Source of the DNA: a virus
Length of the DNA stretch: 26,238 nt
Virus record (IMG/VR): IMGVR_UViG_3300032287_001307
Coordinates: 1 to 26,238 of that record
Direction: 5' to 3' (one strand)
Below, one piece after another: positions 1-22,719 of this stretch. Both the position numbers and the translations under genes were made by a program. The notes below the pieces were generated by a model that saw nothing but the letters and a program-made list of their open reading frames with translations, did no database searches and was not told the origin of the DNA. Positions within the stretch are counted from its first letter, which is position 1; the number at the start of each line of letters is the position of its first letter.

Positions 1-3
1 TCA

Positions 4-174
4 TCAGTCAACAACAGAGTAACAAGCAACCCAGGAAGGAACCCCAGAGAGTGATAGCGAACCATTGCGGGCATCGCAATAATCTTGTGCGTCATCTTCA
101 GTATAGAAAGGACCGATGTATTCTGGAGAATCCAGAGCGTTGGAGTCAAAGCGGACGGTGAAAGTGTTTCTCAT
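4..174 (-). CDS. Hypothetical 56-aa protein
   Basis: I do not recognise this protein. It begins MRNTFTVRFDSN and ends near SWVACYSVVD, is soluble and mildly acidic, and has no signal peptide or membrane segment. I chose the ATG at 174 because the longer reading from 216 runs through the class-1 intergenic repeat. The ATG follows directly after the repeat's TATAGT hexamer with no Shine-Dalgarno sequence, so if that hexamer were a -10 box the start codon would fall outside its own transcript. It probably depends on read-through from upstream genes. It ends three bases from the window edge. Confidence 0.6.
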   Translation of the reverse strand: MRNTFTVRFDSNALDSPEYIGPFYTEDDAQDYCDARNGSLSLSGVPSWVACYSVVD

Positions 175-204
175 ACTATAGAGACAATTTGAAGGCCCCA
201 GAGT
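175..204 (-). repeat. Class-1 intergenic repeat, copy 1
   Basis: First of nine copies of a ~30-bp element between consecutive minus-strand genes. On the minus strand it reads CTCTGGGGCC, then a TTGAAAGTG-like block (here altered), then TATAGT. It sits two bases past the stop codon of the upstream gene (206-208) and touches the ATG at 174. This is the most diverged long copy. Confidence 0.85.
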
Positions 205-205
205 T

Positions 206-379
206 TTAGTAACCATTCATAAAGTCAGCAAGTGCTTGCTGATACTGCTCCTCAGTGTGATAGGTTCGGGCACCAATCGTCAGAGGAAAGGTACGCTTAG
301 GAGCAGAAGATTTGGGCAGGTCACGACCTTTATCGAGAACCTGTTGAGTGTAGGGATTGGAGTTGTAGTTGGTGTTCAT
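206..379 (-). CDS. Hypothetical 57-aa protein
   Basis: An unrecognised small protein (MNTNYNSNPYTQQVLDKG at the N-terminus, ending ALADFMNGY). It has a central basic PKRTF stretch and a C-terminal EEQYQQALADF helix. The ATG at 379 is directly next to repeat copy 2 with no visible Shine-Dalgarno sequence, as in the next gene downstream. The reading frame is open and bounded on both sides by class-1 repeats, which makes it look like a single-gene module. Confidence 0.6.
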   Translation of the reverse strand: MNTNYNSNPYTQQVLDKGRDLPKSSAPKRTFPLTIGARTYHTEEQYQQALADFMNGY

Positions 380-409
380 ACTATAAGGACACTTTCAAGG
401 CCCCAGAGT
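380..409 (-). repeat. Class-1 intergenic repeat, copy 2
   Basis: Close to consensus, with minus-strand core GGGGCCTTGAAAGTGTCC followed by TTATAGT. It lies between the stop of the 415-558 gene and the ATG at 379, which it abuts. Confidence 0.9.
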
Positions 410-414
410 CAGCA

Positions 415-558
415 TCAAAGAAAACTCACATTAACTCCAATAACCTTTGCAGTTGGATTGCGTGCTAAAGCTGTGGCGCGGGCATCTTTAGGATTGTTTG
501 CTTGTACTTCCTCGGTGAATGTTTTTCCACCGACCCACAGTTGAACTTTGTACTTCAT
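415..558 (-). CDS. Hypothetical 47-aa protein
   Basis: A 47-residue protein beginning MKYKVQLWVGGKTFTEEV, with a central DARATALARNP helix and a hydrophobic end (VIGVNVSFL). The pattern of two short strands, a helix and a strand suggests a small alpha/beta fold, and short proteins of this type recur in cyanophages. I cannot assign a function. The ATG at 558 is immediately preceded by a ~90-bp leader that is duplicated before the gene at 5584-5760. The stop is followed by class-1 repeat copy 2. Confidence 0.65.
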   Translation of the reverse strand: MKYKVQLWVGGKTFTEEVQANNPKDARATALARNPTAKVIGVNVSFL

Positions 559-648
559 GGTTTTGTTTATACTTTGGAAAAAATCGTTGATTTCACTGCG
601 GCAGATGAACTATCACACCTCTGCAGTAGAAATGCAGAAAAATCAGGT
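559..648 (-). repeat. Duplicated ~90-bp leader, copy 1
   Basis: On the minus strand this leader shares several blocks with 5761-5844: CTGATTTTTCTGCA, TTCTACTGC, a TCATCTGC block, AAATCA, and GATTTTTT followed by AAAGT. Both copies end at the ATG of an otherwise unrelated small gene. It contains a CTGCA/TGCAG hairpin and a short AAATC/GATTT hairpin followed by T residues, so a terminator, attenuator or promoter role is possible. Confidence 0.7.
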
Positions 649-695
649 TTTTGCTTCAGTGGTGGACAGGGTTCTCACTGAGACGCAAGTGAGAT

Positions 696-890
696 TTAGA
701 GGGTTTGGAAGTGCTGTGCCTCAGTCAAGTTAGAATACTTTTTCTTCAGATACTTTTGCAGAATAGTATCAATGACTGGATACCACTGTTCTTTATTGTT
801 AAGATGTGCAAGTCCTCGTGCATCGTTGAGAAAGAACAGAATACAGTTCTCCTCATCTTGCGTGAGATTAAGTCGGTTGAGAATAGTCAT
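696..890 (-). CDS. Hypothetical 64-aa protein
   Basis: Unrecognised, with N-terminus MTILNRLNLTQDEENCILFF and C-terminus SNLTEAQHFQTL; mostly helical and charged, with no membrane segment. I chose the ATG at 890 because it lies two bases beyond the stop of the upstream gene (893-895), the usual spacing here and compatible with translational coupling; an upstream in-frame start at 923 would overlap that gene. Confidence 0.65.
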   Translation of the reverse strand: MTILNRLNLTQDEENCILFFLNDARGLAHLNNKEQWYPVIDTILQKYLKKKYSNLTEAQHFQTL

Positions 891-892
891 AA

Positions 893-1309
893 TCAGCGAG
901 CGTAAGTATAACCAGACGACCAATCTGCGTTCTCAAACAACCATTCACGATCTTTAATCAAACGCAAATCGTAGCGAACACCTTTGGCGGGAGATTTCCA
1001 ACTGGAACTTTTATACAACTCTCCAGTCTTTTTATCAATAAAGCAATGAACAGAGCGGGAGTTTCCACTGCTGACCATAATGACTTTGTGGTACTTTTTA
1101 CCAGTTTCAATCACATAATCAATGGGACATTCACCATTCTTAAGTTCATCAATCTTGCGCTGATGATACTCTTGATTATCAGCATCATTCACGAACTTTT
1201 GATGACCACGAATAGCATACTGACGATAGTTATCTTTCAGTGCTTCAATCAGCAGATGAGTGTACTTAAGCACGTTATCTGCGATGGTTTGTTGTGCTTG
1301 GAGTTGCAT
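893..1309 (-). CDS. Conserved phage hypothetical, 138 aa
   Basis: A soluble protein with a helical N-terminal half (MQLQAQQTIADNVLKYTH onward) and a beta-rich C-terminal half containing SSGNSRSVHCFIDKKTG and YKSSSWKSPAKGVRYDLR. The second half resembles a module I associate with cyanophage hypothetical proteins, but I know no function for it. The start at 1309 lies 15 bases beyond class-1 repeat copy 3. The stop is two bases before the next start. Confidence 0.7.
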   Translation of the reverse strand: MQLQAQQTIADNVLKYTHLLIEALKDNYRQYAIRGHQKFVNDADNQEYHQRKIDELKNGECPIDYVIETGKKYHKVIMVSSGNSRSVHCFIDKKTGELYKSSSWKSPAKGVRYDLRLIKDREWLFENADWSSGYTYAR

Positions 1310-1324
1310 TGTGGTTGTGCTTAT

Positions 1325-1354
1325 ACTATAAGGACACTTTCAAGGCCCCAGAGT
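1325..1354 (-). repeat. Class-1 intergenic repeat, copy 3
   Basis: Consensus copy whose TATAGT is followed by a short leader of the TATAAGC type before the ATG at 1309. It lies just past the stop (1360-1362) of the DUF6267-like gene. Confidence 0.9.
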
Positions 1355-1359
1355 TACAT

Positions 1360-2262
1360 TCACCAATCCTTTGCGAGAGTGAAGTTCAGTCTGCTAAATT
1401 GATGACGATCCACGATCTTGTAAGAACCAAACTTGTTGTGCATCACATAACCTTCGTGCTCGCTCTCATCATCACCAATCTTGCACGAAATGCTATCGTC
1501 GGTGTGAATGAAGAAGAACAAATCCACCTTGATAGATGCAACAAGTTTCCACAATCGCATCAAGTTCACATCAACATCATAATTTTCTGCAATTTCATGC
1601 TCGTCCACCTCCTTACCCTCGCGGATGTAGGAATTGATGACTTTTTTCAGTTCTTTTGCTTGTTTATCACTCACAAACTCACACAACGTTGACATTTGCT
1701 TAGCAAACTTACAAACGTCTTCAATATCCTCACGATACGGACAGATAGACACATCAGGACGCACAAACTTGCAATCCTTCGTGCTAATCAAATCACCTTC
1801 CAGTGGATGTGCTACCATCTCAGGAAGATAGTCCCCAGTGTAATAGGTATGAGGAGCAATGATAATCTCCTCACGCACAATCTCAGGAAACTTATAGGTG
1901 ATGGTGTTAGGTTTGAAAGTATCCAATCCTTTACCAAAACCAATCCAATCACCTTGGAATACACCTTCAGTTTTAGGCAGAAACTCAAGGCAATAGATAA
2001 GGATTTGCGTTACACGCGGTTGTCCACCAAAATGCGTGAAGATGTCATCTTCATTGTAGCACAGGCGAATCTTTTGCTTGTTAAATGCAGCTTTGGTGCA
2101 GACAAAAAACTCACCATTCTGTGGATTTGTGCCCCAAACAATCGCAGGAGCACCATCAATTTTCACACTGATGTTGCTCTCAGTTTCATACATCCAATCC
2201 AGCACTGATAGATCACCAGTCAGGATGGAATCTTCGGGATGTTCGATGTGTTTGTTTTGCAT
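1360..2262 (-). CDS. DUF6267-like nucleotidyltransferase/ligase-fold protein
   Basis: A 300-aa protein with the pattern of covalent nucleotidyltransferases (RNA/DNA ligase fold). A KIDGAPAIVWG motif near residues 34-44 matches KxDG motif I, with the lysine as the expected AMP-accepting residue. It is followed by NPQNGEFFVCTKAAFNK, as in T4-type phage DUF6267 proteins. Near the C-terminus EGYVM and YKIVDR resemble ligase motifs IV and V. By family analogy it could adenylylate or ligate nucleic acid, but the activity is not established and no OB-fold or other extra domain is evident. The ATG at 2262 lies behind a strong terminator with a TATAGAT hexamer between them. A class-1 repeat follows the stop. 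Confidence 0.7.
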   Translation of the reverse strand: MQNKHIEHPEDSILTGDLSVLDWMYETESNISVKIDGAPAIVWGTNPQNGEFFVCTKAAFNKQKIRLCYNEDDIFTHFGGQPRVTQILIYCLEFLPKTEGVFQGDWIGFGKGLDTFKPNTITYKFPEIVREEIIIAPHTYYTGDYLPEMVAHPLEGDLISTKDCKFVRPDVSICPYREDIEDVCKFAKQMSTLCEFVSDKQAKELKKVINSYIREGKEVDEHEIAENYDVDVNLMRLWKLVASIKVDLFFFIHTDDSISCKIGDDESEHEGYVMHNKFGSYKIVDRHQFSRLNFTLAKDW

Positions 2263-2278
2263 GAATCTATAATGACAT

Positions 2279-2303
2279 AAAAAAAGAGGACTCGCAAGTC
2301 CCC
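2279..2303 (-). terminator. Rho-independent terminator
   Basis: On the minus strand GGGGACT, loop TGCG, AGTCCTC (one G-U pair) is followed by seven T residues. It terminates the transcript of the 2316-2567 gene. A GAGAACTGGTACAAGG block just before it matches the conserved block of the class-2 cassettes, so this is a class-2 relative with a full terminator, and a TATAGAT hexamer lies just after it. Confidence 0.85.
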
Positions 2304-2315
2304 TTGTACCAGTTC

Positions 2316-2567
2316 TCAGACTGTCACACGACGTGCAAACAGTTGCTGATACTTTTCAGTAACATACTCAACCGACTGCTTCACATAAGGAGCAACAGTT
2401 TGAGTGAACTTCACCACATCTTCACGAAGTTTGTTAACTTCATACTGGTGAATTGCCCAACGAACCTTAATGTCTTGCAGGTATTGCTCACGAGTGATAA
2501 GAATCTCAGGAACTTTCACTTCAGGAGCAACAACAGCATCAGCGGTTTGTTTGCGAGTGCGAGGCAT
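2316..2567 (-). CDS. Hypothetical 83-aa protein
   Basis: Unrecognised. A basic N-terminus (MPRTRKQTADAVV) precedes a long amphipathic helical segment with REQYLQDIKVRWAIHQ and VKQSVEYVTEKYQQLFARR. No membrane segment or catalytic motif is visible. The ATG at 2567 lies 18 bases beyond class-1 repeat copy 4. Its stop lies within the GAACTGG-type block that precedes the terminator at 2279-2303. Confidence 0.65.
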   Translation of the reverse strand: MPRTRKQTADAVVAPEVKVPEILITREQYLQDIKVRWAIHQYEVNKLREDVVKFTQTVAPYVKQSVEYVTEKYQQLFARRVTV

Positions 2568-2585
2568 AGAGTCGTTTCAACTTAC

Positions 2586-2615
2586 ACTATAGGAACACTT
2601 TCAAGGCCCCAGAAT
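2586..2615 (-). repeat. Class-1 intergenic repeat, copy 4
   Basis: The core carries GTGTTCC in place of GTGTCC and is followed by TATAGTGTAAG. It lies between the methyltransferase stop (2621-2623) and the start at 2567. Confidence 0.85.
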
Positions 2616-2620
2616 TATCA

Positions 2621-3580
2621 TCAAGTAAAAGACAAAACGTTGGTGCTCTGTTGAGTTGCTTCTGTAACTAATTGAATTGACTGAGGATTCACATCGCATG
2701 TGATACAGTTTCTTCCCAAGAGTTGTGCTGCGATTGCTGTAGTTCCAGATCCAGCAAAAGGATCAAAAACCCAACCATTCTCTGGGCAAGATGACTTAAT
2801 GATTCTCTCCAACAATTTGAGTGGTTTTTGTGTAGGATACTTTCGCTTGTTTGATTCACTGCGAGAGATGAAATACACATCATCCCATAGATTTTGCACA
2901 GGAACACCTTTATTGTCTTCCAGGTAAATCTTCTTGTAGATTGTATTCTTACCGTAGTGCAAGAAGTTGTTATCTTCCAACTCTTTTAGAATGTCCTCAC
3001 TTACTCTCCAACCATACTCAGGATTGTATCCCTTAAACTCAAACTTTCGACCTGGGCGACTCTTTTCTCCTGTAGTTTTAGCAAGAGCATAATACCCACG
3101 TTCATCTTGGTTCTTGAAGCTATTCTTTTCATACTTTGCATCAAGATCAGTATACTCAACCTCAAAGTATGGATTACCCTTTCTCAGCACCATGATTGAG
3201 TCCACAATGTTACCCCAACCATTCTTGATATTGTTTTTAGGACCAGACCTTTTCCACGAAATGTTTGTATAAAAGGCATCACGCACTTTTCGGTCTACAT
3301 GAGACAGAACAAGTGCGTTGCCGATGAAGTTATTATGGAGATAAATCCAACCATCTTTATTCAATTTATCCCAGGCTTTGTCTATAATGCCTGCATACCA
3401 CAAGATGTAATCATCGAAGGACTCCCAGTTATCTGAGAATCCTTTTTCTTCACCATCTTGTTCTAGCATCTTGAAATCGCGTTGCAATCCAAATGGAGGA
3501 TCCATGTAGATGAGATCAAATGACCGATCAATTTCAGTCATTTTCTCTGCTGATTGTTGTAGGATTATGATTTCAGACAT
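2621..3580 (-). CDS. N6-adenine/N4-cytosine DNA methyltransferase
   Basis: A 319-aa SAM-dependent amino-methyltransferase. The catalytic motif IV appears first as MDPPFG (about residue 29) and the SAM-binding motif FDPFAGSGTT lies near residue 270, after YPTQKPLKLLERII, which gives the beta-class order. It should methylate an exocyclic amino group of adenine or cytosine in DNA, protecting phage DNA or acting as half of a restriction-modification pair. I chose the ATG at 3580, which shares one base with the upstream stop (TGATG), over a GTG two codons earlier; the overlap implies translational coupling to the ParB-like gene. The target sequence cannot be read from the protein. Confidence 0.9.
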   Translation of the reverse strand: MSEIIILQQSAEKMTEIDRSFDLIYMDPPFGLQRDFKMLEQDGEEKGFSDNWESFDDYILWYAGIIDKAWDKLNKDGWIYLHNNFIGNALVLSHVDRKVRDAFYTNISWKRSGPKNNIKNGWGNIVDSIMVLRKGNPYFEVEYTDLDAKYEKNSFKNQDERGYYALAKTTGEKSRPGRKFEFKGYNPEYGWRVSEDILKELEDNNFLHYGKNTIYKKIYLEDNKGVPVQNLWDDVYFISRSESNKRKYPTQKPLKLLERIIKSSCPENGWVFDPFAGSGTTAIAAQLLGRNCITCDVNPQSIQLVTEATQQSTNVLSFT

Positions 3581-4644
3581 CAGCACACAGGACGTTCAAT
3601 AAAGTTATTTTCATCTGAGTCATATTCACTATCAATCTGACCCATAGCAACATATTCTATCTTAGCATAAAACTCCTTTCTGGACAATGTAGATAGTTGA
3701 ACCTTGTCGTAAAACTTACTCATGATTCTTGCAGTTTTAACAAATTGCTCATACATTCTCTCAAATCCATCCTTGTGATGTTTAACAATGACTGATGGAT
3801 CGTCTTTTTTAGAATAAGTTTGAATAACTGGAATATATCCATCATCCAGTGCATTTAGAACTTGATTCCACCATTTGGGAGCATCTGCCTTTGCATTATC
3901 AGTACAAACAACGTATCCATAACGTCCATTATTCAGAAGACCAGTTCCATAATGGTTATTTGTTGAGGCACAAATCATGTCTCTCACTTCATCAGTTGAA
4001 AGATTACGAATTTTTTTCCCAGCATATTTGCCTGGTTGTAAAATTCTATTTGTAATCTGAGTAAGTTTTCCCTCCGCAAAAACTTCATGCTGCTTTGTTT
4101 CTCTCAACCACATTCCAATATGAACTTCATCAACAGGAGTTCCTGGACGATAAACATAACTATATTTTTTAATTCTATCCTCGGCAGCACGAACAACACT
4201 ATTCATTGTTGTTTTCTTTTGAGGATTTTTGAGATTGTTAATTACAAATCCAAAGTCAGTTGCCGCTGCCCACAAATACTCCGCATCAATTCCAGTGTAT
4301 TCGTAGACATCCACATACCATTTTTCTTGCTTTAACTTTTTTAATGCGGCAACAAGGTGGTGGTGGTCAATGATGTCATATTTTCCAAACTCATTGACCA
4401 CCACGGCAGCAAGTTGACCATCTTCATCATATCCACCTTCTAAAAGATTATTATAAATTTCATCCACAAGTTCCCAGTCCATATCCTCAGCACGAGGATC
4501 ATTTTCACTAAACTCCAAATCATCAACATTTACTTGGTAAGTTGATGATTTTAGTCTAAAATATGGAGATGATGGTCTTTGACGATCTTTGGCATATTTA
4601 CTAACTTTGGGAAGTTGGGTTGGAACAAATTTGATTTTTGCCAT
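3580..4644 (-). CDS. ParB-like N-terminal domain protein
   Basis: A 354-aa protein whose first ~120 residues resemble the ParB/sulfiredoxin-like fold: QVNVDDLEFSENDPR, then YDIIDHHHLVAALKKLK, where a DxHH-type motif takes the place of the usual D(G)HHR. The remaining ~230 residues are unrecognised and contain a conserved-looking NNHYGTGLLNNGRYGY block. ParB-like domains often accompany DNA methyltransferases. Here the gene overlaps the methyltransferase start by one base and shares its promoter, so a role in DNA modification or cleavage is plausible but inferred. It has a perfect -35/-10 promoter 20-50 bp upstream and no clear Shine-Dalgarno sequence. Confidence 0.7.
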   Translation of the reverse strand: MAKIKFVPTQLPKVSKYAKDRQRPSSPYFRLKSSTYQVNVDDLEFSENDPRAEDMDWELVDEIYNNLLEGGYDEDGQLAAVVVNEFGKYDIIDHHHLVAALKKLKQEKWYVDVYEYTGIDAEYLWAAATDFGFVINNLKNPQKKTTMNSVVRAAEDRIKKYSYVYRPGTPVDEVHIGMWLRETKQHEVFAEGKLTQITNRILQPGKYAGKKIRNLSTDEVRDMICASTNNHYGTGLLNNGRYGYVVCTDNAKADAPKWWNQVLNALDDGYIPVIQTYSKKDDPSVIVKHHKDGFERMYEQFVKTARIMSKFYDKVQLSTLSRKEFYAKIEYVAMGQIDSEYDSDENNFIERPVC

Positions 4645-4670
4645 TTTTTGTCAAAAAGATAATTTACAAT

Positions 4671-4700
4671 ATTATATGGGAAGTTGACAACTTCTGTCAA
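4671..4700 (-). promoter_or_regulatory. Consensus sigma-70 promoter for the ParB/methyltransferase pair
   Basis: On the minus strand a perfect TTGACA (4700-4695), an 18-bp spacer and a perfect TATAAT (4676-4671) stand about 20-30 bases before the ATG at 4644. The -35 box and spacer lie inside a 15-bp perfect inverted repeat. This is the best host-type promoter in the window and suggests early expression. Confidence 0.85.
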
Positions 4701-4709
4701 CTTCCCATA
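4675..4709 (-). repeat. 15-bp perfect inverted repeat overlapping the promoter
   Basis: Arms 4675-4689 and 4695-4709 (TATGGGAAGTTGACA and its complement) are separated by 5 bases. It begins five bases after the stop of the 4714-5469 gene, so as RNA it would form a strong hairpin at that gene's 3' end, but no T-run follows. As DNA it spans the -35 box and spacer and could be an operator. Confidence 0.85.
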
Positions 4710-4713
4710 AGAC

Positions 4714-5469
4714 TCAATACTTATACATTTCAGCGTTGGTTTCGGTGAGTAGTTGATTGATTTTATCTTGCTGGAGTTTGAATACAATAGAGGAGTTTTT
4801 GTTTGCTTTGCTCAGACCAAGAAACGCTGTGACTCCATTGTTACTGGTGACGCGAATCCGAAGACCACAATCATACTCTTTTACTCCATCAGTAAAGAGT
4901 AGACGACGTGATCCCTTTGCACGACCTTTAAGGAAAGGAACGTAACCTTTCTGAATGTAATGAACTGCTGGATGATTGTCTGCATCATAGGTATAGAGAA
5001 TCTTCGCTACAGTATCATTCACAGCAACCTTCATTTGATTGTTTGCATCAATCATTTGAGTCTGAATAAATGAGGTCAACTGTTCTGCAGTGAAAGAGTC
5101 AAGAACGTTGCTGCAGAGATCGGCAAACTCTTTACGAACTTGCTTTACGAAAGATGTAGAGGAGCGTTGAGATGTGGGAAGTTGGCGATATTCTTTGATC
5201 TGTTCAAGAAAGGAAACAAAAGTATCACCAACAACTTCAGAAACCTTTGTTGTGTTGATCCAATCAAAAGAACCGTTTTTGATACCTTTCTTGTGTTTAA
5301 TAGTCCATTTGATGTTACGTTCGGGATCAAATGCGTCTGCTTTGTTCTTTGTTCCCCCAAGAAGAGTAATACTAAAAGACGCCAAGTTAAAGAACTTCAG
5401 AAGTTCAGCAGTATCTGCCTCATTCTTTACGCCTTCATAGTGAACTTTTCCAGTGTTGTCGAAAGTCAT
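4714..5469 (-). CDS. Hypothetical 251-aa protein, possible nuclease fold
   Basis: Unrecognised by full-length similarity. Residues ~10-80 carry GVKNEADTAELLKFF, then GGTKNKADAFDP and IKWTIKHKKGIKNGSFDW. The order of an acidic helix, a lone Asp and an xK-x-K strand is reminiscent of PD-(D/E)XK nucleases, but the canonical E-x-K is not clear. The rest is helical and ends KINQLLTETNAEMYKY. It stands just upstream of the ParB-like and methyltransferase genes, separated by a hairpin and promoter. If it is a nuclease, the three genes could form a restriction-modification-like module; this is speculative. Confidence 0.55.
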   Translation of the reverse strand: MTFDNTGKVHYEGVKNEADTAELLKFFNLASFSITLLGGTKNKADAFDPERNIKWTIKHKKGIKNGSFDWINTTKVSEVVGDTFVSFLEQIKEYRQLPTSQRSSTSFVKQVRKEFADLCSNVLDSFTAEQLTSFIQTQMIDANNQMKVAVNDTVAKILYTYDADNHPAVHYIQKGYVPFLKGRAKGSRRLLFTDGVKEYDCGLRIRVTSNNGVTAFLGLSKANKNSSIVFKLQQDKINQLLTETNAEMYKY

Positions 5470-5551
5470 TTTATTTTCTTGTGGTGTTCCACAGTAGAGT
5501 TTTAGTGATGCTCCGTCTTTATAGGGCGCGGAACTTTCCCATGGTCACATT

Positions 5552-5578
5552 ACTAGGACACTTTGAAGGCCCCAGAGT
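5552..5578 (-). repeat. Class-1 intergenic repeat, copy 5 (shortened)
   Basis: The CTCTGGGGCCTT block and GTGTCC are present but TATAGT is reduced to TAGT. It lies about 80 bases upstream of the ATG at 5469; the stretch between holds no supported gene, only a 7-codon ATG-stop string. Confidence 0.8.
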
Positions 5579-5583
5579 TACTA

Positions 5584-5760
5584 TCAGACTGGAAGTTTAC
5601 CCATCGATACACCTTTCTTATGATCTGTGATATACTTTCGTGCAGAACTTTCAGTCCTACAGAGTTTATCAAGTTGCTGACCATTGTAGATGATGAGATA
5701 CTGACTCCCATAAGGAATAGCAGCATAGGTGTCTTTGAACATCGTGAATCCTTCTTTCAT
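5584..5760 (-). CDS. Hypothetical 58-aa protein
   Basis: Unrecognised, with N-terminus MKEGFTMFKDTYAAIPYG, central QYLIIYNGQQLDKLCRT and a basic C-terminal region (ARKYITDHKKGVSMGK). It has no membrane segment. The ATG at 5760 abuts the second copy of the duplicated ~90-bp leader, and class-1 repeat copy 5 follows its stop. Confidence 0.65.
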   Translation of the reverse strand: MKEGFTMFKDTYAAIPYGSQYLIIYNGQQLDKLCRTESSARKYITDHKKGVSMGKLPV

Positions 5761-5844
5761 AGTTACACTTTCAAAAAAATCAGTGATTTGGTTGCAGCAG
5801 ATGACTCATAGCACCTGCGCAGTAGAATTGCAGAAAAATCAGGG
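5761..5844 (-). repeat. Duplicated leader, copy 2
   Basis: Shares the blocks listed for 559-648. Here the CTGC...GCAG hairpin arms differ from copy 1 but still pair, and the element runs up to the ATG at 5760. It fills most of the 121-bp gap before the helicase gene's stop. Confidence 0.7.
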
Positions 5845-5881
5845 TTTCGGTCCAGTCAGGGCCTTGAGTCTACTGTGAGAC

Positions 5882-7126
5882 TCACCGCCTCACCACCGAC
5901 ACAGCAGGTTCGCCCTTCTCGAAGATCGTATCAACAACTGCCTGAACACTGCGGGCAGTAGCAATACCAACCTTGGAGTACACAGGAATACACACAAGAC
6001 CAAACGATTTGGTATAGGAATCCAGAGCACCTGGTTGAATATTGCCAGCAGCAAGATTACGGGCATCATCGTGATGCAAACGGATGCAGCGTCCGATAGT
6101 CTGACTGATACCAATGTAGTCCATGTTACGCATAAACAACACTGCCTCAAGTCCGCTCACATTGATACCCTCAGCAAGAATACTGTGGTGCAAAACAACA
6201 AACTTCTTGCTATTGTCCTTGCCCCAGGCACTCAGAGTATCGAAGAATACCTCACGATTGACCTTCTTACCGTCAATCACTGCACCAGTCTTAGCAGTAA
6301 TGAACATCCAAGAATAGCCGCGCTGCTCTAGTTCATCGCAGAAATCAGTTTCAGACACCAGAGCAACGATTTGCTTGGTTGCCTTAGCACAAATCAGAAT
6401 CTTACCGACATTGTTCTCGTCAATGGTCTCCAGCAGATTCTCTGCATCGCGGTCGAAGTTGGTCTGCTTACCCTTCACCATCGGCAGTTGCTTGACGACA
6501 ACTTTAGGAGGAACAATGTAACCGCCTTCGACAAGTTCAGGGGCAGGAACTTTACAGATAACCTGACCATAAACCTCAGAGATATTCATCCCTGGTTTAC
6601 CCACAGCAAGAGAATGTTTGGGGGTAGCAGTGAAAAAATAGCAGCGTCGTGCATTAGCAGCGAAGTGCTCAGTTGCAGGGAAAAAGTTACGCTTGACGCT
6701 GTTATGTGCCTCATCAAAGTAGATCGTATCCACATCAACTCCAGTCTGCTCAAGGCGAGACAGGGAATGATAGGTTGTTACAATCAACTTATGACGGGAG
6801 CGATTGTTCTCAACCCACTGACGAATCAGACCAGGACGAGTAGTAGATTCGTGATGAGTTTCACCACTATGAATGTGGAGAACTGCAGCATTGGTGATAA
6901 ACTCCAGGAACTCTGCAGAGAGTTGCTCTGCCAGAAGAATACGGGGAGCAACAACTACAATAGTCTGTGGAGTTTCAGACTGCAACTCTCGCAGAGCATC
7001 GTAAATCATCTTGAGAGTCTTGCCGCCACCAGTAGGCACAATGATCTGACCTTTATCGTACTTTTGCATAGCAGCAACAGCACGTTCTTGGTGAGGGCGA
7101 AGTTGGATTTGCATTTGATTCATCAT
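5882..7126 (-). CDS. DEAH-box SF2 helicase
   Basis: A 414-aa superfamily-2 helicase/ATPase. Motifs in order are the Q-like LRPHQERAV (~9), Walker A PTGGGKT (~31-37), Ia VVVAPRILLAEQ, Ib TTYHSL, Walker B DEAH, III FTATP, and in the C-terminal half QTIGRCIR (motif VI). It should couple ATP hydrolysis to duplex nucleic acid unwinding, in the manner of phage UvsW-type recombination/replication helicases, though it is shorter than UvsW. Two in-frame ATGs (7126, 7123) follow class-1 repeat copy 6 directly; I kept the first. Confidence 0.93.
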   Translation of the reverse strand: MMNQMQIQLRPHQERAVAAMQKYDKGQIIVPTGGGKTLKMIYDALRELQSETPQTIVVVAPRILLAEQLSAEFLEFITNAAVLHIHSGETHHESTTRPGLIRQWVENNRSRHKLIVTTYHSLSRLEQTGVDVDTIYFDEAHNSVKRNFFPATEHFAANARRCYFFTATPKHSLAVGKPGMNISEVYGQVICKVPAPELVEGGYIVPPKVVVKQLPMVKGKQTNFDRDAENLLETIDENNVGKILICAKATKQIVALVSETDFCDELEQRGYSWMFITAKTGAVIDGKKVNREVFFDTLSAWGKDNSKKFVVLHHSILAEGINVSGLEAVLFMRNMDYIGISQTIGRCIRLHHDDARNLAAGNIQPGALDSYTKSFGLVCIPVYSKVGIATARSVQAVVDTIFEKGEPAVSVVRR

Positions 7127-7128
7127 CT

Positions 7129-7158
7129 AGTATAGGGACACTTTGAAAGCCCCAGAGT
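7129..7158 (-). repeat. Class-1 intergenic repeat, copy 6
   Basis: Variant copy (GGGGCTTTCAAAGTGTCCC, then TATACT). It sits between the stop at 7160-7162 and the helicase ATG, two bases away. Confidence 0.85.
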
Positions 7159-7159
7159 T

Positions 7160-7351
7160 TCAGTTATTCTTGTAATAATTCAGGTCATCAATCACACTCT
7201 GCATTGCAGCGCGACTATAACCAACTGCATAACTTGGCGACTGCTCGCTATTTTCTGAATAGTAGTCTACATTATAACACACATCAACACTTTGTCCCAG
7301 TGTTTTGAGAATACGCTCAAAAATGTAATCAGGAATCTCAATGGTTTTCAT
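7160..7351 (-). CDS. Hypothetical 63-aa protein
   Basis: Unrecognised; begins MKTIEIPDYIFERILKTLG and ends QSVIDDLNYYKNN. A strong Shine-Dalgarno sequence (GGAGG) inside the end of the upstream gene points to the ATG at 7351, four bases before that gene's stop-codon boundary, rather than the TTG two codons earlier. It is probably co-translated with the 7354-7551 gene. Confidence 0.7.
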   Translation of the reverse strand: MKTIEIPDYIFERILKTLGQSVDVCYNVDYYSENSEQSPSYAVGYSRAAMQSVIDDLNYYKNN

Positions 7352-7353
7352 TA

Positions 7354-7551
7354 TCAACCTCCGTAAACTTCTTCAGCGATAGGAGTGTCACCGAACATTT
7401 CAGTAAACAACCAATCAGCAGGTTTGTTGAGGTTGCTTTCACACTCTTTCAGGAAGGCAATCTCGCGAGTCCAAAACTCTACACTTTTCTTTGCTTTCAG
7501 ATACTCATTGCGAGCATCATAGAGTTTGCGTTGGATTTCGATGCGGTCCAT
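7354..7551 (-). CDS. Hypothetical 65-aa coiled-coil protein
   Basis: Begins MDRIEIQRKLYDARNEYLKA and continues with a heptad-like helical stretch (VEFWTREIAFLKECESNL), suggesting a short coiled coil, then ends PIAEEVYGG. No function is recognised. It starts 17 bases beyond class-1 repeat copy 7 and is the first gene of a two-gene unit with 7160-7351. Confidence 0.65.
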   Translation of the reverse strand: MDRIEIQRKLYDARNEYLKAKKSVEFWTREIAFLKECESNLNKPADWLFTEMFGDTPIAEEVYGG

Positions 7552-7568
7552 AATGAAGCGGTGTCTAT

Positions 7569-7598
7569 ACTACTGGGACACTTTCAAGGCCCCAGAGT
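7569..7598 (-). repeat. Class-1 intergenic repeat, copy 7
   Basis: Perfect core GGGGCCTTGAAAGTGTCC, but the following hexamer is AGTAGT rather than TATAGT. It lies between the internal-protein candidate (stop 7604) and the start at 7551. Confidence 0.88.
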
Positions 7599-7603
7599 TA
7601 AGA

Positions 7604-8215
7604 TTACTTGGGGCGATAGTCGTGCTTAAGTTGTACTTGTTCTGGTTTCTTACCTTGTTTCTTTGCCTCACCTTGTCTCACAAGTTGCTCAAGTTTTCTA
7701 TGACCCCTTCTAGTAATATCTTTTCTTTGCTCTCTTGACATACCGACAACTGCTCTCTTCGGTTGATCGGCAGGTCTCTTATCTACTTCAGTTTTCTTTG
7801 TTTTAAGAAGTTGAGATGCAGTCTTCGCTACTTCTTTTGCTTTTGGTTTTTCTGCTGCTGGTGCAGATCCACCTTTCTTTGCAGCAATTCTAGCAAGTGC
7901 TGCTTTCTTTCTTTCTTCTTTTGCTGCCGCTGCTGCTTTTGCCTTTACGTCAGTAGAACCACGTTCTTGTGTTGGTTGCTGAACTCTTGTAGATGCTTGA
8001 CGTTGAGAACCAATATCAGAACGTGATTTGTATGAACTTGGAGTCCTTGTTTCACCTGCTTTTGCTTGCTTCATCCTGCGAATTTCAGGAGCAGTTTTCT
8101 TACGCTCAGCACCAATACGACCGCCTTCACCAGTCTTGCGAATTTGAGCAGACTTCATTACATCAGCATCGTATGCTGCTTCAGCAATCAAAACAAACTC
8201 CTGAAATGTCCTCAT
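7604..8215 (-). CDS. Candidate capsid-targeted internal head protein
   Basis: A 203-aa protein extremely rich in Lys, Arg, Ala and Gln, with low-complexity stretches such as KAKAAAAAKEERKKAALARI. Its N-terminus, MRTFQEFVLIAEA, closely resembles the capsid-targeting sequence of T4 internal proteins (MKTYQEFIAEA type), and I-A-E at residues 10-12 fits the gp21 prohead-protease rule (hydrophobic-x-Glu). By analogy it would be packaged in the prohead, trimmed, and injected with DNA. A late promoter (CATAAATA) lies inside a hairpin just upstream. The basic composition could equally suit another nucleic-acid-binding protein. Confidence 0.65.
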   Translation of the reverse strand: MRTFQEFVLIAEAAYDADVMKSAQIRKTGEGGRIGAERKKTAPEIRRMKQAKAGETRTPSSYKSRSDIGSQRQASTRVQQPTQERGSTDVKAKAAAAAKEERKKAALARIAAKKGGSAPAAEKPKAKEVAKTASQLLKTKKTEVDKRPADQPKRAVVGMSREQRKDITRRGHRKLEQLVRQGEAKKQGKKPEQVQLKHDYRPK

Positions 8216-8222
8216 TGTGAGT

Positions 8223-8249
8223 TAAATAAACGCTTCTTGTTTATTTATG
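8223..8249 (-). promoter_or_regulatory. Late promoter inside a 9-bp hairpin
   Basis: Minus strand CATAAATA (8249-8242) fits the T4 late consensus NATAAATA. Its right part belongs to a perfect 9-bp inverted repeat (8223-8231 with 8239-8247). A late transcript starting about six bases downstream would lack the first arm, whereas read-through RNA would carry the full hairpin seven bases from the ATG at 8215. Confidence 0.7.
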
Positions 8250-8250
8250 A

Positions 8251-8457
8251 TTAGTCAGCATCTTTGAGTTTATCTTGAGCGGACTTACTAATCTTGCAAA
8301 CCAAGTCATTATCATAAAAATACTTGACTCGTTCGCGACGGGCAGCAATCAAAATATCGTATTCTTCCTGTTGTTGTTTTGTGAACTTAAAGTCTTGCTT
8401 ACGCCAAGCATCTTTCAGTTCGCGGATGTGAGGAAGAACATTTACAGTTTCAGTCAT
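8251..8457 (-). CDS. Hypothetical 68-aa protein
   Basis: A charged, largely helical protein beginning MTETVNVLPHIRELKDAWRK, with FTKQQQEEYDILIAARRERV in the middle and ending SAQDKLKDAD. It is not recognised and has no membrane segment. A good host-type promoter (TTGATT, 17 bp, TATACT) lies 24-52 bp upstream, inside the 3' end of the neighbouring endonuclease-like gene, so it can be expressed independently. Confidence 0.65.
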   Translation of the reverse strand: MTETVNVLPHIRELKDAWRKQDFKFTKQQQEEYDILIAARRERVKYFYDNDLVCKISKSAQDKLKDAD

Positions 8458-8480
8458 TTGTTTTGTTTGATTACTAATGT

Positions 8481-8509
8481 AGTATAAGTGTTTAGAGCGT
8501 TGAAATCAA
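8481..8509 (-). promoter_or_regulatory. Sigma-70-type promoter
   Basis: Minus strand TTGATT (8509-8504), a 17-bp spacer and TATACT (8486-8481), about 25 bases before the ATG at 8457. The -35 box overlaps the stop codon of the 8506-9012 gene. Confidence 0.65.
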
Positions 8510-9012
8510 GAGTTAGTGGTCACTTTTTCAACTGACCTAATATCTTTGTATTTCTTTCTTTTTCCAGAAAGAAATCTATATAATCCTCGGTCATTATATC
8601 CATTCATTCTACACCATTCAACAATTCCAAATACATACTCAACTCGTCCATCATTAAAAGTAATCACATAATGTTTTTTTCTTGCATTAATTACATTAAG
8701 GTTTCCTTTCATAGATTTTGATACATTTTCTCCATGATGTTTTGGTTTTGGAATTTTTGATATTTTTTTCAAAAACTGCCTTTTCTCTTCATCACATTTT
8801 AATCCTTTATTCCAAGGTATTTGTCCTTTTCGTGAAAGACTCATTTTTTTCTTGGTTTCTTCACTTAAAAAAATAACACCACTCATTCCTTTATTCCAAG
8901 GAGAAATAACTGGAGTAGATAAAATTTCATAGCAATTTGGATCTTCAATAATCCAATTTGAACCATCTACGTTGAAAACTTTATTCAACGATTGAACGTT
9001 AATTTTATTCAT
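8506..9012 (-). CDS. Homing-endonuclease-like protein, DNA-binding part only
   Basis: A 168-aa protein with NUMOD3-type segments (SEETKKKMSLSRKG and two WNKG turns) and a C-terminal NUMOD1/helix-turn-helix-like block (VFGIVEWCRMNGYNDRGLYR then FLSGKRKKYKDI). These are the DNA-recognition modules of phage GIY-YIG and HNH homing endonucleases. No GIY-YIG, HNH or LAGLIDADG core is visible, so it may be a nuclease-less derivative or use a catalytic fold I cannot see in the first 45 residues. It has its own late promoter inside a 14-bp inverted repeat (9019-9096), as the true endonuclease genes here do. Confidence 0.7.
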   Translation of the reverse strand: MNKINVQSLNKVFNVDGSNWIIEDPNCYEILSTPVISPWNKGMSGVIFLSEETKKKMSLSRKGQIPWNKGLKCDEEKRQFLKKISKIPKPKHHGENVSKSMKGNLNVINARKKHYVITFNDGRVEYVFGIVEWCRMNGYNDRGLYRFLSGKRKKYKDIRSVEKVTTNS

Positions 9013-9018
9013 TCTTGT

Positions 9019-9096
9019 CTTAAACGTCGCAATAGTATTTATATTCAGTGAGGAGTATTTCTACTCCTCACCTTGCTTTAAGTTGCGACGCTTAAG
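9019..9096 (-). promoter_or_regulatory. Late-promoter translation lock for the 8506-9012 gene
   Basis: Arms 9083-9096 and 9019-9032 pair over 14 positions with one mismatch; the proximal arm ends six bases from the ATG at 9012. Between them lie a 10-bp hairpin with a GAAA loop (9048-9071) and a perfect late promoter, TATAAATA (9043-9036). RNA entering from upstream would pair the arms and cover the ribosome-binding region. RNA begun at the late promoter lacks the distal arm. Confidence 0.8.
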
Positions 9097-9105
9097 CATC
9101 ACTAT

Positions 9106-9234
9106 TTATTTGCGATAAGGACTCCTCCAATAGGAGCGAAAAGCAGTAACAACAATAAGAAGCGTTGAAGCAACACCAACCAAACCAAGGAAGGTAACAG
9201 CATCACCCGAGAAAGAATACTGGTCAGGAGTCAT
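9106..9234 (-). CDS. Small single-pass membrane protein, 42 aa
   Basis: MTPDQYSFSG, then one hydrophobic segment (AVTFLGLVGVASTLLIVVTA), then a basic tail (FRSYWRSPYRK). The tail would stay in the cytoplasm by the positive-inside rule. Its size suggests a photosystem small subunit, but I cannot match it to any Psb, Psa or Pet protein. The ATG is two bases past the stop of the upstream acidic gene. The stop codon is part of an AATAAATA late-promoter-like string. Confidence 0.65.
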   Translation of the reverse strand: MTPDQYSFSGDAVTFLGLVGVASTLLIVVTAFRSYWRSPYRK

Positions 9235-9236
9235 AA

Positions 9237-9374
9237 TCAAAAATCGTAGTTAGAATTAATCATGCGTTGAAAGGTTTTATCGTCCTCGTTTTCATCAAAG
9301 AGTTCATCATAAACTTCTTCAACAAAATCAGCAGGGTAAAACTCCTCAACTTGAATATCGTCGTAGTGATCCAT
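9237..9374 (-). CDS. Small acidic protein, 45 aa
   Basis: Very acidic (MDHYDDIQVEEFYPADFVEE, then VYDELFDENEDD), with aromatic residues between acidic runs, a composition seen in DNA-mimic and host-takeover phage proteins. No function is recognised. It is preceded by class-1 repeat copy 8 and followed after two bases by the small membrane protein gene. Confidence 0.65.
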   Translation of the reverse strand: MDHYDDIQVEEFYPADFVEEVYDELFDENEDDKTFQRMINSNYDF

Positions 9375-9394
9375 TTTTCAGAATGAACGCTTAC

Positions 9395-9424
9395 ATTATA
9401 GGTACACTTTCAAGGCCCCAGAGT
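9395..9424 (-). repeat. Class-1 intergenic repeat, copy 8
   Basis: Core with GTGTACC in place of GTGTCC and a consensus TATAAT hexamer, followed by GTAAGC. It lies 20 bases before the ATG at 9374. Confidence 0.88.
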
Positions 9425-9426
9425 TT

Positions 9427-9621
9427 TTATCTACGAGACAGGATTGCTTTCATTCTTGCATTTTTTGCTGACTGCTGGGCTCTTGCCTCTCCACCCAATT
9501 CTTGGTGAACGTGCTTAATTTGCGCAGTCTTTTGTGCTGCTTGACGAATTGCAACTTGCTTGCTGTAAAGATTTGGCTCCATATGTGGAGTTTGTTCCAT
9601 AAATTGCTGAAACGTCTTCAT
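9427..9621 (-). CDS. Second candidate capsid-targeted internal protein
   Basis: A 64-aa basic protein whose N-terminus, MKTFQQFMEQ, matches the T4 capsid-targeting pattern, with F-M-E at residues 7-9 fitting the gp21 cleavage rule. The remainder is Gln-, Ala-, Lys- and Arg-rich (VAIRQAAQKTAQIKHVHQEL, ending KNARMKAILSRR). By analogy it would be a small protein packaged and ejected with DNA. Upstream, CTAAATA is one base from a late promoter, consistent with but not proof of late expression. Confidence 0.6.
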   Translation of the reverse strand: MKTFQQFMEQTPHMEPNLYSKQVAIRQAAQKTAQIKHVHQELGGEARAQQSAKNARMKAILSRR

Positions 9622-9649
9622 TTTACCAACACTTTTTGATTATTTAGTT

Positions 9650-9937
9650 TCACTCAAACTCAAATGTCCTATTTACCTTTCGCAGTGGTGGAATTTGATA
9701 TGTTTGAGTGCTTACACCATCAATGTAAACTTCTACATGTGTCTTATCATTCCAATGTCGCACAACTCCAGCAATAATGAAAGCATTGGTAATCAAATAA
9801 GTTGCAAAAATAAAAGTTCGGATAAGAGCAATCTTATCCGATTCTTTATCACATTTACTTGCTTTCTCCCCTATTGCTTTCGCCCACCATCGCCACAGGG
9901 TTTTCTTTTTCATATTTTGATTTCCTTTTTCGGACAT
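9650..9937 (-). CDS. Small membrane protein, 95 aa
   Basis: A cytoplasmic basic N-terminus (MSEKGNQNMKKKTLWRWWAK) leads to one membrane segment (LIRTFIFATYLITNAFIIAG) and an exported-looking tail (THVEVYIDGVSTQTYQIPPL). Not recognised. The ATG at 9937 is supported by a well-placed Shine-Dalgarno sequence (AAGGAG) and means an 83-base overlap with the upstream gene in another frame; a later start at 9913 would still overlap. Confidence 0.65.
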   Translation of the reverse strand: MSEKGNQNMKKKTLWRWWAKAIGEKASKCDKESDKIALIRTFIFATYLITNAFIIAGVVRHWNDKTHVEVYIDGVSTQTYQIPPLRKVNRTFEFE

Positions 9938-10145
9938 ACTTCAACTCCTTCCATTGTTGATGATAACAAACCACAAGCAATCGCTCATTTCTATGTAGAG
10001 AACAGTGTTGATAGTTCTCTTTATCCTTTGGACGCACTGATACTTCAATTGTAATATAATCATTACATTTGAAATACACCCATCCTCGGATGTGTTTCTT
10101 CCACTTCACATAGTCATCTATTTCAGGAATGTAGTCTAAATCCAT
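9855..10145 (-). CDS. Conserved phage hypothetical, 96 aa
   Basis: Begins MDLDYIPEIDDYVKWKKH, followed by IRGWVYFKCNDYITIEVSVR and ENYQHCSLHRNERLLVVCYH. The beta-rich, aromatic pattern looks like a small phage family I have seen among T4-type hypotheticals, but I know no function. Its 3' 83 bases overlap the membrane protein gene. It starts six bases beyond the endonuclease remnant. Confidence 0.65.
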   Translation of the reverse strand: MDLDYIPEIDDYVKWKKHIRGWVYFKCNDYITIEVSVRPKDKENYQHCSLHRNERLLVVCYHQQWKELKYVRKRKSKYEKENPVAMVGESNRGESK

Positions 10146-11973: not shown

Positions 11974-12030
11974 ATTATAGTGCATCAGGAGGGTCTTGTG
12001 GGAGTGTAGTGTGCCAGTTCTTAAAGTGGT
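11974..12030 (-). promoter_or_regulatory. Class-2 promoter cassette B
   Basis: Minus strand CCACTTTAAGAACTGGCACA block, then about 30 bases with CACTCCCAC and GATGC, then TATAAT (11979-11974). The block contains the TAA stop of the endonuclease gene (12021-12023). No good -35 box lies at 17 bp, so recognition may depend on the conserved block. Confidence 0.7.
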
Positions 12031-12596
12031 ACCTTGCTTATTATTCTAAAACCTTTGTGCTGTTTATATTTTCCAGTAAAAGTTCTTGTCAAATTTGCTC
12101 TTTTTAAATCATATCTTTTACAGAAATCTCTTAGACTTTTTGTTTTATGTATAGTGTTGTTTTCAAGTTCTATTACACAATATTCATAATCTGCATTTGA
12201 TTCCCTTATTCTTTCCTTCAAATCATTATCAAGTCTTACTCCATATCTTGGGTTATTTTGTTTATATGTCTTCTTTTGTATTTTACTTTTAGTTTCTTCT
12301 GAAAGCAACCTACCATTCATTCCGCCAGTGTCACTATTATATCCATTCTTAAATGTGTCATACTTTTTTACCCAATACATTTCTCTTTCGTTTATAAAAT
12401 CAAAATCACATTCTTCAATCACTCCATAAATGAAGTTATTTTTACCATACTTTTTTATAGCACGATGAAATTTGTATTGGGAGTTAGAAGACCTACAAAA
12501 GTGGTCGTTTATTCGGTATTGTAATTTTTGTATTGTTTGTCCTATGTATTTCTTTCCTGTTGAAATACAATGGACACAATAGATAGTGCCTTTCAT
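12021..12596 (-). CDS. GIY-YIG homing endonuclease
   Basis: A 191-aa free-standing homing endonuclease. The N-terminal GIY-YIG domain shows IYCVHC and GKKYIGQT (residues ~5-22), an Arg-rich helix (LQYRINDHFCRS) and NEREMYWVKKYDTFKNGYN with the catalytic Glu. After it come a NUMOD3-like LSEETKSKIQKKTY and a C-terminal NUMOD1/HTH-like SLRDFCKRYDLKRANLTRTF. It should cut a related phage genome lacking the insert near this locus and spread by repair. A late-promoter lock (12606-12678) lies upstream, and the stop lies in a class-2 cassette. Confidence 0.88.
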   Translation of the reverse strand: MKGTIYCVHCISTGKKYIGQTIQKLQYRINDHFCRSSNSQYKFHRAIKKYGKNNFIYGVIEECDFDFINEREMYWVKKYDTFKNGYNSDTGGMNGRLLSEETKSKIQKKTYKQNNPRYGVRLDNDLKERIRESNADYEYCVIELENNTIHKTKSLRDFCKRYDLKRANLTRTFTGKYKQHKGFRIISKVPL

Positions 12597-15544: not shown

Positions 15545-15722
15545 TATTCTTGATTATTGAGTTGTAGTATCTGTTATATCCAATAAATCTATTCATATTA
15601 GGTTTTACACCTAAACTTTCACAGCATTCAAGATAAGAAAGGAACTCAAAATATGGAGTTGATGCGTCTAGTGCTGGATAGTTTGGACTATAATACCCTA
15701 TAATTTTACGAAAGTCAATCAC
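15537..15722 (-). CDS. Hypothetical 61-aa protein, GTG start
   Basis: Reads IDFRKIIGYYSPNYPALDAS, then FEFLSYLECCESLGVKPNMN, ending [10 protein letters not shown]. Unrecognised; aromatic-rich. The only suitable start is GTG at 15722, eight bases inside the 3' end of the endonuclease gene. That overlap suggests the endonuclease gene inserted very close to this start and may have replaced its original leader. Confidence 0.55.
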   Translation of the reverse strand: MIDFRKIIGYYSPNYPALDASTPYFEFLSYLECCESLGVKPNMNRFIGYNRYYNSIIKNND

Positions 15723-16473
15723 ACATCTTTACCATCCAACTTTTACATCCAGGGACTATTTTACCAGTTTTTATCATATTTCGCATCCCCCAAGAAGAAA
15801 TATTATTTTCATTACAAAACTTTTGAAATCCACCAATAACAATATATTCTTCACCTTTTGGAGAAGTAAATATAAATTTTTTTGCACTTGGGTGATTTTC
15901 TGATTTATATTTATTTTTCCTCCCTTCCTTCATTTTATCTATAACATATTTTGGTCTAGGAACGCCTTTTCTCATTTCACTTAATCTTTTTTTAGCATCT
16001 TCAGAAATAACTGGTCCCTTTTTACCCTTTAATTTTTCACTCAAATTCTTTTTAGCATCTTCGCTCCATTTCCTTCCTTTATTTGCCTCACTTATTTTTT
16101 TCTTTGCTTCATCAGAATGTTTAAAACATTTCATTCTTTCAGAATATTTTTTTCTTACATCTTCAGGAACAATCCAAGTTGTTCCACCATCACCACCAGA
16201 AGTCATATTATATCCTTCAGATAAAGTTTTATATTTTTCAATATAAAAAACTTCTCTTTCATCAAGAATGTTTTTATCACATTCTTCAATTATTCCAAAT
16301 ATAAAGTTATTCCACCCATATTTTCTTACAGCAGAATAAAATTTTGTTACTTTATTATTTCTAACATTTCTGCGATGTCTGGTCAATCTATTAGAAATAG
16401 ATATACTTTTTCCTATGTATTTTTTACCAGTTAAAATACAATGAAAACAGTATATTACTGCGGTTTTTTTCAT
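15715..16473 (-). CDS. GIY-YIG/NUMOD3 homing endonuclease
   Basis: 252 aa. The GIY-YIG domain has VIYCFHC and GKKYIGKS (residues ~5-22), an Arg-rich helix (NRLTRHRRNVRNN) and LDEREVFYIEKYKTLSEGYN with the catalytic Glu. Several NUMOD3 repeats follow (SDEAKKKISEANKGRKWSED, DAKKRLSEMRKGVPRP), then a C-terminal NUMOD1/HTH-like segment (GFQKFCNENNISSWGMRN). It resembles the 12021-12596 enzyme at the N-terminus (IYC-HC-GKKYIG) but has more DNA-binding repeats. I chose the ATG at 16473 because earlier starts would translate the late promoter and lock stem. Confidence 0.88.
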   Translation of the reverse strand: MKKTAVIYCFHCILTGKKYIGKSISISNRLTRHRRNVRNNKVTKFYSAVRKYGWNNFIFGIIEECDKNILDEREVFYIEKYKTLSEGYNMTSGGDGGTTWIVPEDVRKKYSERMKCFKHSDEAKKKISEANKGRKWSEDAKKNLSEKLKGKKGPVISEDAKKRLSEMRKGVPRPKYVIDKMKEGRKNKYKSENHPSAKKFIFTSPKGEEYIVIGGFQKFCNENNISSWGMRNMIKTGKIVPGCKSWMVKMCD

Positions 16474-16477
16474 TTTA

Positions 16478-22703: not shown

Positions 22704-22719
22704 AGTTCTGCTTCTATAT

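Follow-up and report, generated by a model that had tools for sequence, protein, structure and literature searches.

Gene content of the locus

We analysed a stretch of 26,238 bp, hereafter the window, taken from an uncultured virus record (IMG/VR IMGVR_UViG_3300032287_001307), in which a DNA methyltransferase (MTase) gene, a ParB-like gene and a gene for a 251-amino-acid (aa) nuclease candidate lie in series around a promoter and a palindrome (Table 1). Short DNA stretches of the window match T4-like cyanophages (S-PM2, S-SRM01, S-SM2 and others). On the minus strand, the order is a helicase (7126-5882), a small open reading frame (ORF), the nuclease candidate (5469-4714), the promoter and palindrome (4709-4671), the ParB-like gene (4644-3580), the MTase (3586-2621), an 83-aa ORF and a DUF6267 gene (2262-1360). 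A first-pass annotation of the window had proposed a possible restriction-modification (R-M)-like module at this place.

Table 1. Features of the locus, in window coordinates
Feature	Position	Strand	Details
Beta-class DNA methyltransferase (M), 321 aa	2621..3586	-	PF01555, E 2.6e-39
ParB-like protein, 354 aa	3580..4644	-	PF08857 ParBc_2, E 2e-5, just over cut-off
Sigma-70-type promoter TTGACA-N18-TATAAT	4671..4700	-	12/12 match
Perfect 15-bp inverted repeat, operator-like	4675..4709	.	arms 4675-4689/4695-4709, 100%, 5-nt loop
Candidate PD-(D/E)XK endonuclease (R), 251 aa	4714..5469	-	E17, GGT38-40, K43, D45, K58; family alignment and model
Small hairpin TGTGG-AACA-CCACA, candidate translational operator	5480..5493	-	just before nuclease start codon
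Phage intergenic repeat CTCTGGGGCCTTGAAAGTGTCC, then -10-like sequence; candidate phage-type promoter	5556..5577	-	upstream of nuclease gene

In the MTase, DPPF (motif IV) precedes DPFAGSGTT (motif I), which is the motif order of the beta class, and its relatives in the PDB are the MboIIA, CcrM, DpnA and RsrI MTases. The ParB-like stop codon and the MTase start codon share the sequence TGATG (ATG at 3580), while a longer version of the MTase starting from a GTG at 3586 would give a 7-nt overlap. Together with the two family matches, this bears out the annotated beta-class MTase overlapping a ParB-like gene. The MTases of known site are too distant for predicting the recognition sequence of the enzyme.

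The relatives collected from IMG/VR came to 57 loci with a member of the nuclease family and 78 with an MTase relative (labelled L001 and so on); the neighbourhoods of the nuclease family were counted after clustering at 90% identity, which left 43 clusters. By tblastn, 50,697 phage records returned no relative of the nuclease candidate, for which four queries were used, or of the window ParB-like protein. The nuclease family was not found in four cyanophage genomes searched by profile either. On PADLOC the MTase matched MTase models only and the other two genes matched none, and no Rfam family was matched within the window or at the locus. A bacterial origin of the nuclease was also considered: two scans of 84,980 species genomes gave no match, which is weak evidence given the short and narrow conserved patterns that were used.

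The candidate nuclease and its pairing with the methyltransferase

No convincing known family was found for the 251-aa protein in family searches. The weak PD-(D/E)XK-like pattern reported for it at first pass is indeed weak in the single sequence, but it is strong across the family, in which the motif E...GG..K.D...S.K is conserved. Among 27 divergent members, H9, E16, GG(T), D44, S53/K55 and D66 (L012 numbering) are invariant or nearly so, as are R201, R203, an N-N-G, N220 and K228-x-Q-Q-D further along the protein. The conserved spacing is that of an E...D...xxK nuclease centre on a helix-strand-strand-strand arrangement. The AlphaFold2 (AF2) model of the protein, with a predicted local distance difference test score (pLDDT) of 84.5, places a helix at residues 17-26 and strands at 35-39, 43-48 and 53-60. 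When this model was compared with known structures using VIA-align, HinP1I came first (Z 8.1 and 7.8, the former over 175 residues), followed by Hjc (6.0), HhaI (5.2), EndoMS, MspI (4.3), a RecU-like protein, MvaI (4.0) and XisH, and PD-(D/E)XK-type proteins occupied the top nine rows. Structure prediction, which the first-pass annotation had named as a check on this gene, thus yields a model resembling PD-(D/E)XK restriction enzymes. The candidate combines a nuclease fold, on a model with moderate Z, with a catalytic signature, and we consider the fold well supported, if model-based. The likeness to HinP1I is structural only, as sequence searches of the PDB with the family profile and with the single query gave no match; in the searches made, no restriction enzyme, whether solved or catalogued, proved similar in sequence to the family.

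When the nuclease model was searched against a viral structure library, the two best matches came from the cyanophages ACG-2014f and S-CAM22; these entries were assigned to genes by phage and protein length, not by accession. The S-CAM22 match is gp186 (208 aa; GGSRTKIDGTDGVNNKSIKN), whose gene overlaps that of the MTase gp185 by 4 nt, and the ACG-2014f match is gp187 (433 aa; GGQTTTKVDVYV...NVSLKAG), which lies 35 nt before the MTase gp188. Both carry the motif GG..(T)K.D...S(I/L)K. When S-CAM22 gp186 and the nuclease family were compared by profile, only the GG..K.D..S.K core aligned, without significance. Lying beside DNA MTases and not having been used in building the hypothesis, gp186 and gp187 are the best independent support for an R-M reading of the locus.

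The candidate could instead be a PD-(D/E)XK nuclease that is not site-specific, of a host-DNA-degrading, recombination or resolvase type, its partnership with the MTase being coincidental. Hjc resolvase and RecU-like folds are among the matches and the window copy belongs to a clade that does not adjoin the MTase, as this explanation would have it. However, it is restriction enzymes that match best, over 175 residues and hence beyond the catalytic core, and many members of the family overlap the start of an MTase gene; we regard a nuclease of this other kind as unlikely.

In the family as a whole, the nuclease gene stands directly against the MTase gene in 18/43 clusters, has the ParB-like gene in between in 6/43, as in the window, and shows neither arrangement in 19/43. 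In many of these uncultured cyanophage contigs it runs into the MTase gene, with short start/stop overlaps of a few bases. The pairing holds in four deep branches (L122-L125), where the nucleases share ~30% identity and the MTases ~36%, and most of the long MTase-bearing records (211, 172, 152, 133, 108, 105 and 98 kb) also hold the nuclease, sometimes ~10 kb apart. On the tree, the state with the ParB-like gene in between needs four changes, so that gain of this gene by the cassette, or its loss, seems to have happened more than once.

These counts bear on the possibility that the MTase is an orphan serving anti-restriction, which shields phage DNA from host enzymes while the nuclease and ParB-like genes merely happen to lie nearby, in a variable region rich in genes. 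Phages often have solitary MTases but seldom complete R-M systems, with 143 of the former and nine of the latter in 831 phages (PMC4176335), and type II enzymes "rarely occur on bacteriophages" (PMC4081073). Furthermore, many relatives of the MTase have a helicase or some other gene beside them in place of a nuclease. Nevertheless, adjacency in 24/43 clusters, maintained across ~30% identity, is far above the random-neighbour expectation, and the structural relatives elsewhere are MTase-linked as well. An orphan MTase appears rather improbable to us. A candidate and possibly cognate endonuclease lies one gene away in the window and is present in most of the long MTase-bearing records.

Promoter, palindrome and ParB-like protein

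The promoter between the nuclease and ParB-like genes consists of a -35 TTGACA (4700-4695), an 18-nt spacer and a -10 TATAAT (4676-4671) that ends 26 nt ahead of the ParB-like start codon, and it is the sole such site within positions 1-10000 of the window. Inverted repeats such as the one found here are expected by chance ~0.0007 times per window. The repeat holds the -35 and most of the spacer. The promoter had been described as embedded in the repeat: both are perfect, but the -10 overlaps the repeat end by just 2 nt and lies mostly outside. Likewise, the module had been placed behind the promoter, which fits the ParB-like and MTase genes but not the nuclease-like gene, which lies upstream of the switch.

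Within the repeat, a core TTGnCA-N5-TGnCA[AG] is conserved (4684-4700), its first half being the -35 and its second half lying within the spacer. This core precedes every ParB-like gene of two main subfamilies, ~25% identical, for which sequence is available. In 1.16 Mb the core is followed by a -10 at 11 sites, against 0.2 expected from base-shuffled sequence, and all 11 occurrences stand before ParB-like genes; the promoter position is likewise kept across the 11 loci. The operator-like palindrome of the first-pass annotation is thus upheld as a conserved site tied to the ParB-like gene. That the palindrome is no accident but a conserved operator-like site is solid. The -35 itself belongs to the repeat, and the inverted half-site might accordingly be a mere feature of strong early promoters in these phages. 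Yet only 10/138 near-perfect promoters (at most one mismatch) of the same loci carry the second half-site and the motif search found it only before ParB-like genes; this explanation is already disfavoured and we give it very little credit.

The palindrome could also work as RNA, in the form of a terminator or insulating hairpin that ends the nuclease gene, and not as a DNA operator. As RNA it is predicted to fold into a strong hairpin (-23.6 kcal/mol, z -7.5). The arms reach 12-15 bp in the window, L008, L038 (one mismatch) and L077, all of them loci without an ordinary terminator ahead of the promoter, while a T-tract terminator is present at this place in L009, L050, L051, L052 and L064; moreover, the arms of the window and of L008 differ in sequence yet stay complementary. 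On the other hand, no T tract follows the stem, and the invariant core TTGnCA-N5-TGnCA is kept even without extended arms or a stable hairpin. A role as RNA in place of DNA has some chance of being right, if a minor one. The simplest reading of the palindrome is a DNA operator bound by a dimer, with an RNA hairpin possible for the long-armed cases.

ParB-like members are 351-397 aa long and match PF08857 at E <= 0.1 in 9/11 cases. In the window protein the ParB/Srx-fold domain occupies N-terminal residues ~20-142, the remaining two thirds being modelled at low confidence, and its model matches M. xanthus ParB (Z 11.4, root-mean-square deviation 2.0 over 96 aa) as well as Noc, KorB and sulfiredoxin, which places it in the ParB/Srx superfamily by fold. 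No helix-turn-helix family was matched among the ParB-like proteins. KorB is a ParB-fold transcriptional repressor, and its presence among the structural matches was counted for a repressor role of the ParB-like protein. With KorB and the other ParB-fold proteins the window protein shares the fold of the N-terminal domain (Z 9.0-11.4), whereas identity is ~16% and an IDHHH-type stretch seems to stand in place of the usual nucleotide-binding motif. The ParB-like gene would be an optional and probably regulatory third gene of the module, and given its strict co-occurrence with the palindrome, a protein binding this site would most likely be the ParB-like protein itself.

A third ParB-like subfamily (334 aa) was seen at L130:1192-3001, where it adjoins a different, 237-aa MTase in reversed order. 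Genes directly 3' of MTase pairs at L133:3409-4608 (ACG-2014j) and L141:3286-4356 (S-CAM22) contain KKGQHR and IDGQHK stretches that recall ParB/DGQHR proteins. As candidate ParB relatives, the third genes of other cyanophage MTase pairs were set aside, their profile comparison with the window ParB-like family not being significant.

The nuclease gene has different elements upstream. In many other lineages, a hairpin CCGTG-TCGAT-CACGG, different from that of the window, stands at the nuclease start (e.g. L012:1712-1726), with a conserved loop and a covarying lower stem (100% paired, two pairs with compensatory change). The CCGTG-TCGAT-CACGG hairpin was also seen in L098 (8830), L101 (9111) and L106 (7035), where small ORFs begin 9-10 nt after it. 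The start-codon hairpin is a candidate translational operator common to several phage genes. Ahead of the nuclease gene, the leader CCGCGCCCTATAAAGACGG...GTGGAACNCCAC (5480-5535, minus strand) is conserved between the window and L001-L007 and has no Rfam match. A clear copy of the repeat CTCTGGGGCCTTGAAAGTGTCC also precedes the nuclease gene in L008, L016 and L022, and in others the repeat is degenerate or absent. The window holds nine minus-strand copies of this 22-nt sequence (182, 387, 1332, 2593, 5556, 7136, 7576, 9402 and 13698), where none would be expected by chance; every copy is intergenic, mostly with a TATAGT/TATAAT-like hexamer directly after it, and the repeats look like a phage-specific promoter class. 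A host-type promoter for the ParB-like and MTase genes, as opposed to a phage-type element and a hairpin for the nuclease, would fit protection before cutting.

The proposed module and its relation to known systems

Taken together, we favour, with moderate confidence, the interpretation of the locus as a phage-encoded type II R-M-like module made of a new PD-(D/E)XK family, an MTase and an optional ParB-like gene. The nuclease is probably of a new family, and the module with its optional ParB-like gene probably stands under the conserved operator-like site. The gene pairing and the conservation of the operator-like site are solid. The R-M-like module proposed at first pass hence gains from the recurrent coupling to the MTase, the PD-(D/E)XK-like model and the MTase-linked structural relatives, and loses from the window clade, whose relatives are not MTase-adjacent.

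Several points weigh against this interpretation. The other six members of the clade of the window nuclease are not adjacent to an MTase, which is why the window neighbourhood may be a recent recombination; within this clade, L001 and L005 hold an MTase elsewhere in their records (L005 with a ParB-like gene), and none was seen in the 84.7-kb fragment of L002. In the family, 19/43 clusters are without an adjacent MTase, some of these being contig fragments, and many MTase relatives have no nuclease nearby, so that the MTase may also act alone. The promoter drives the ParB-like and MTase genes and not the nuclease gene. As for the structures, Foldseek against the PDB with the nuclease model gave insignificant matches only, mostly tRNA-synthetase-like, the fold rests on VIA-align, and a Z of 8 is close to the noise level flagged by the aligner. 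Finally, the stretch of the ParB-like protein presumed to bind DNA defied modelling, which leaves self-binding of the palindrome to be argued from co-occurrence.

From the computed pairing, nuclease-like model and motif, ParB fold and operator-like site, we infer the following scheme of cutting, shared specificity, repression, timing and purpose. The 251-aa protein would be a sequence-specific PD-(D/E)XK endonuclease, and the 321-aa MTase would mark the same site in phage DNA. The ParB-like gene would be co-transcribed and translationally coupled with the MTase, the strong host-type promoter giving early ParB-like protein and MTase, and the palindrome across the -35 and spacer would act as an operator at which, most likely, the ParB-like protein later represses transcription. 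The nuclease would be expressed from the separate phage-type upstream element, with the hairpin preceding its start codon, and protection would by this arrangement precede cutting. The likely purpose would be to cut unmarked DNA in the infected cell, that is, the host chromosome, for nucleotides, and rival phages.

The broader proposal, that T4-like cyanophages use R-M modules timed by a ParB-fold autorepressor and a start-codon RNA hairpin to destroy unmarked host DNA and rival phages, is doubtful at this stage. The genes denA, denB and ndd are missing from cyanomyoviruses, whose DNA degradation may follow a route not yet described (PMC2984593). If the proposal is true, R-M modules would explain host DNA degradation by cyanomyoviruses without these T4 genes. 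With DNA-cutting and DNA-marking enzymes of its own, the phage would be unusually armed for a lytic virus. A candidate restriction nuclease family paired with an MTase makes this question directly testable, and it offers a new restriction-enzyme-like family along with a possible ParB-fold regulator of R-M gene expression.

Elsewhere in the window, the minus strand encodes a 172-aa protein (18199-18717) with NHEFGHTLGLEH, by eye a metzincin-type zinc protease motif, and a 217-aa protein (19262-19915) with a low-complexity acidic/TPTP N-terminus and, by eye, RTX-like repeats. Homing-endonuclease-like genes are found, also on the minus strand, at 8506-9012 (NUMOD3 match) and at 12021-12596, 15715-16530 and 21936-22730 (GIY-YIG-like by eye).

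Several known systems resemble the module in part. Type II R-M systems with PD-(D/E)XK enzymes of the HinP1I, MspI and HhaI kind have the same nuclease-like fold, a separate MTase gene alongside and overlapping genes, whereas the window module is on a T4-like phage and its candidate nuclease showed no sequence similarity to theirs in the searches made. Controller (C) proteins are small helix-turn-helix proteins. As in R-M systems regulated by them, an operator-like palindrome appears to overlap the promoter that serves the MTase gene and its partner; in contrast, the co-conserved gene is here of ParB fold. We know of no homology between the R-M systems of Chlorella viruses and the window module. 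These systems, such as CviAII, belong to viruses of eukaryotic algae, but they too comprise a type II enzyme and an MTase encoded by a virus (PMC4081073).

Further R-M-like pairs may be present in sequenced cyanophages. In ACG-2014f, a protein of 200 aa whose sequence GADYGVDGFG...VAVQIKYK looks PD-(D/E)XK-like by eye lies directly before an NPPY DNA MTase (gp052-gp053; L142:36380-38212), another possible R-M-like pair. In Syn19, Syn2 and ACG-2014j, a small gene overlaps an MTase gene and is annotated as R.RsaI endonuclease in Syn19 and ACG-2014j and left unannotated in Syn2; we found no paper in the open literature that describes these pairs. Their nuclease sequences are unrelated to the window family by search, the MTases are no more than distant relatives, with ~38% identity over the last 108 residues, and the pairs are not known to include a ParB-like gene with such an operator-like site. 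In these pairs with a DNA adenine methylase, however, a small gene overlaps a PF01555 MTase gene as in many relatives of our locus, in the same virus family, and the R.RsaI annotations give R-M-like pairs in T4-like cyanophages an annotation precedent.

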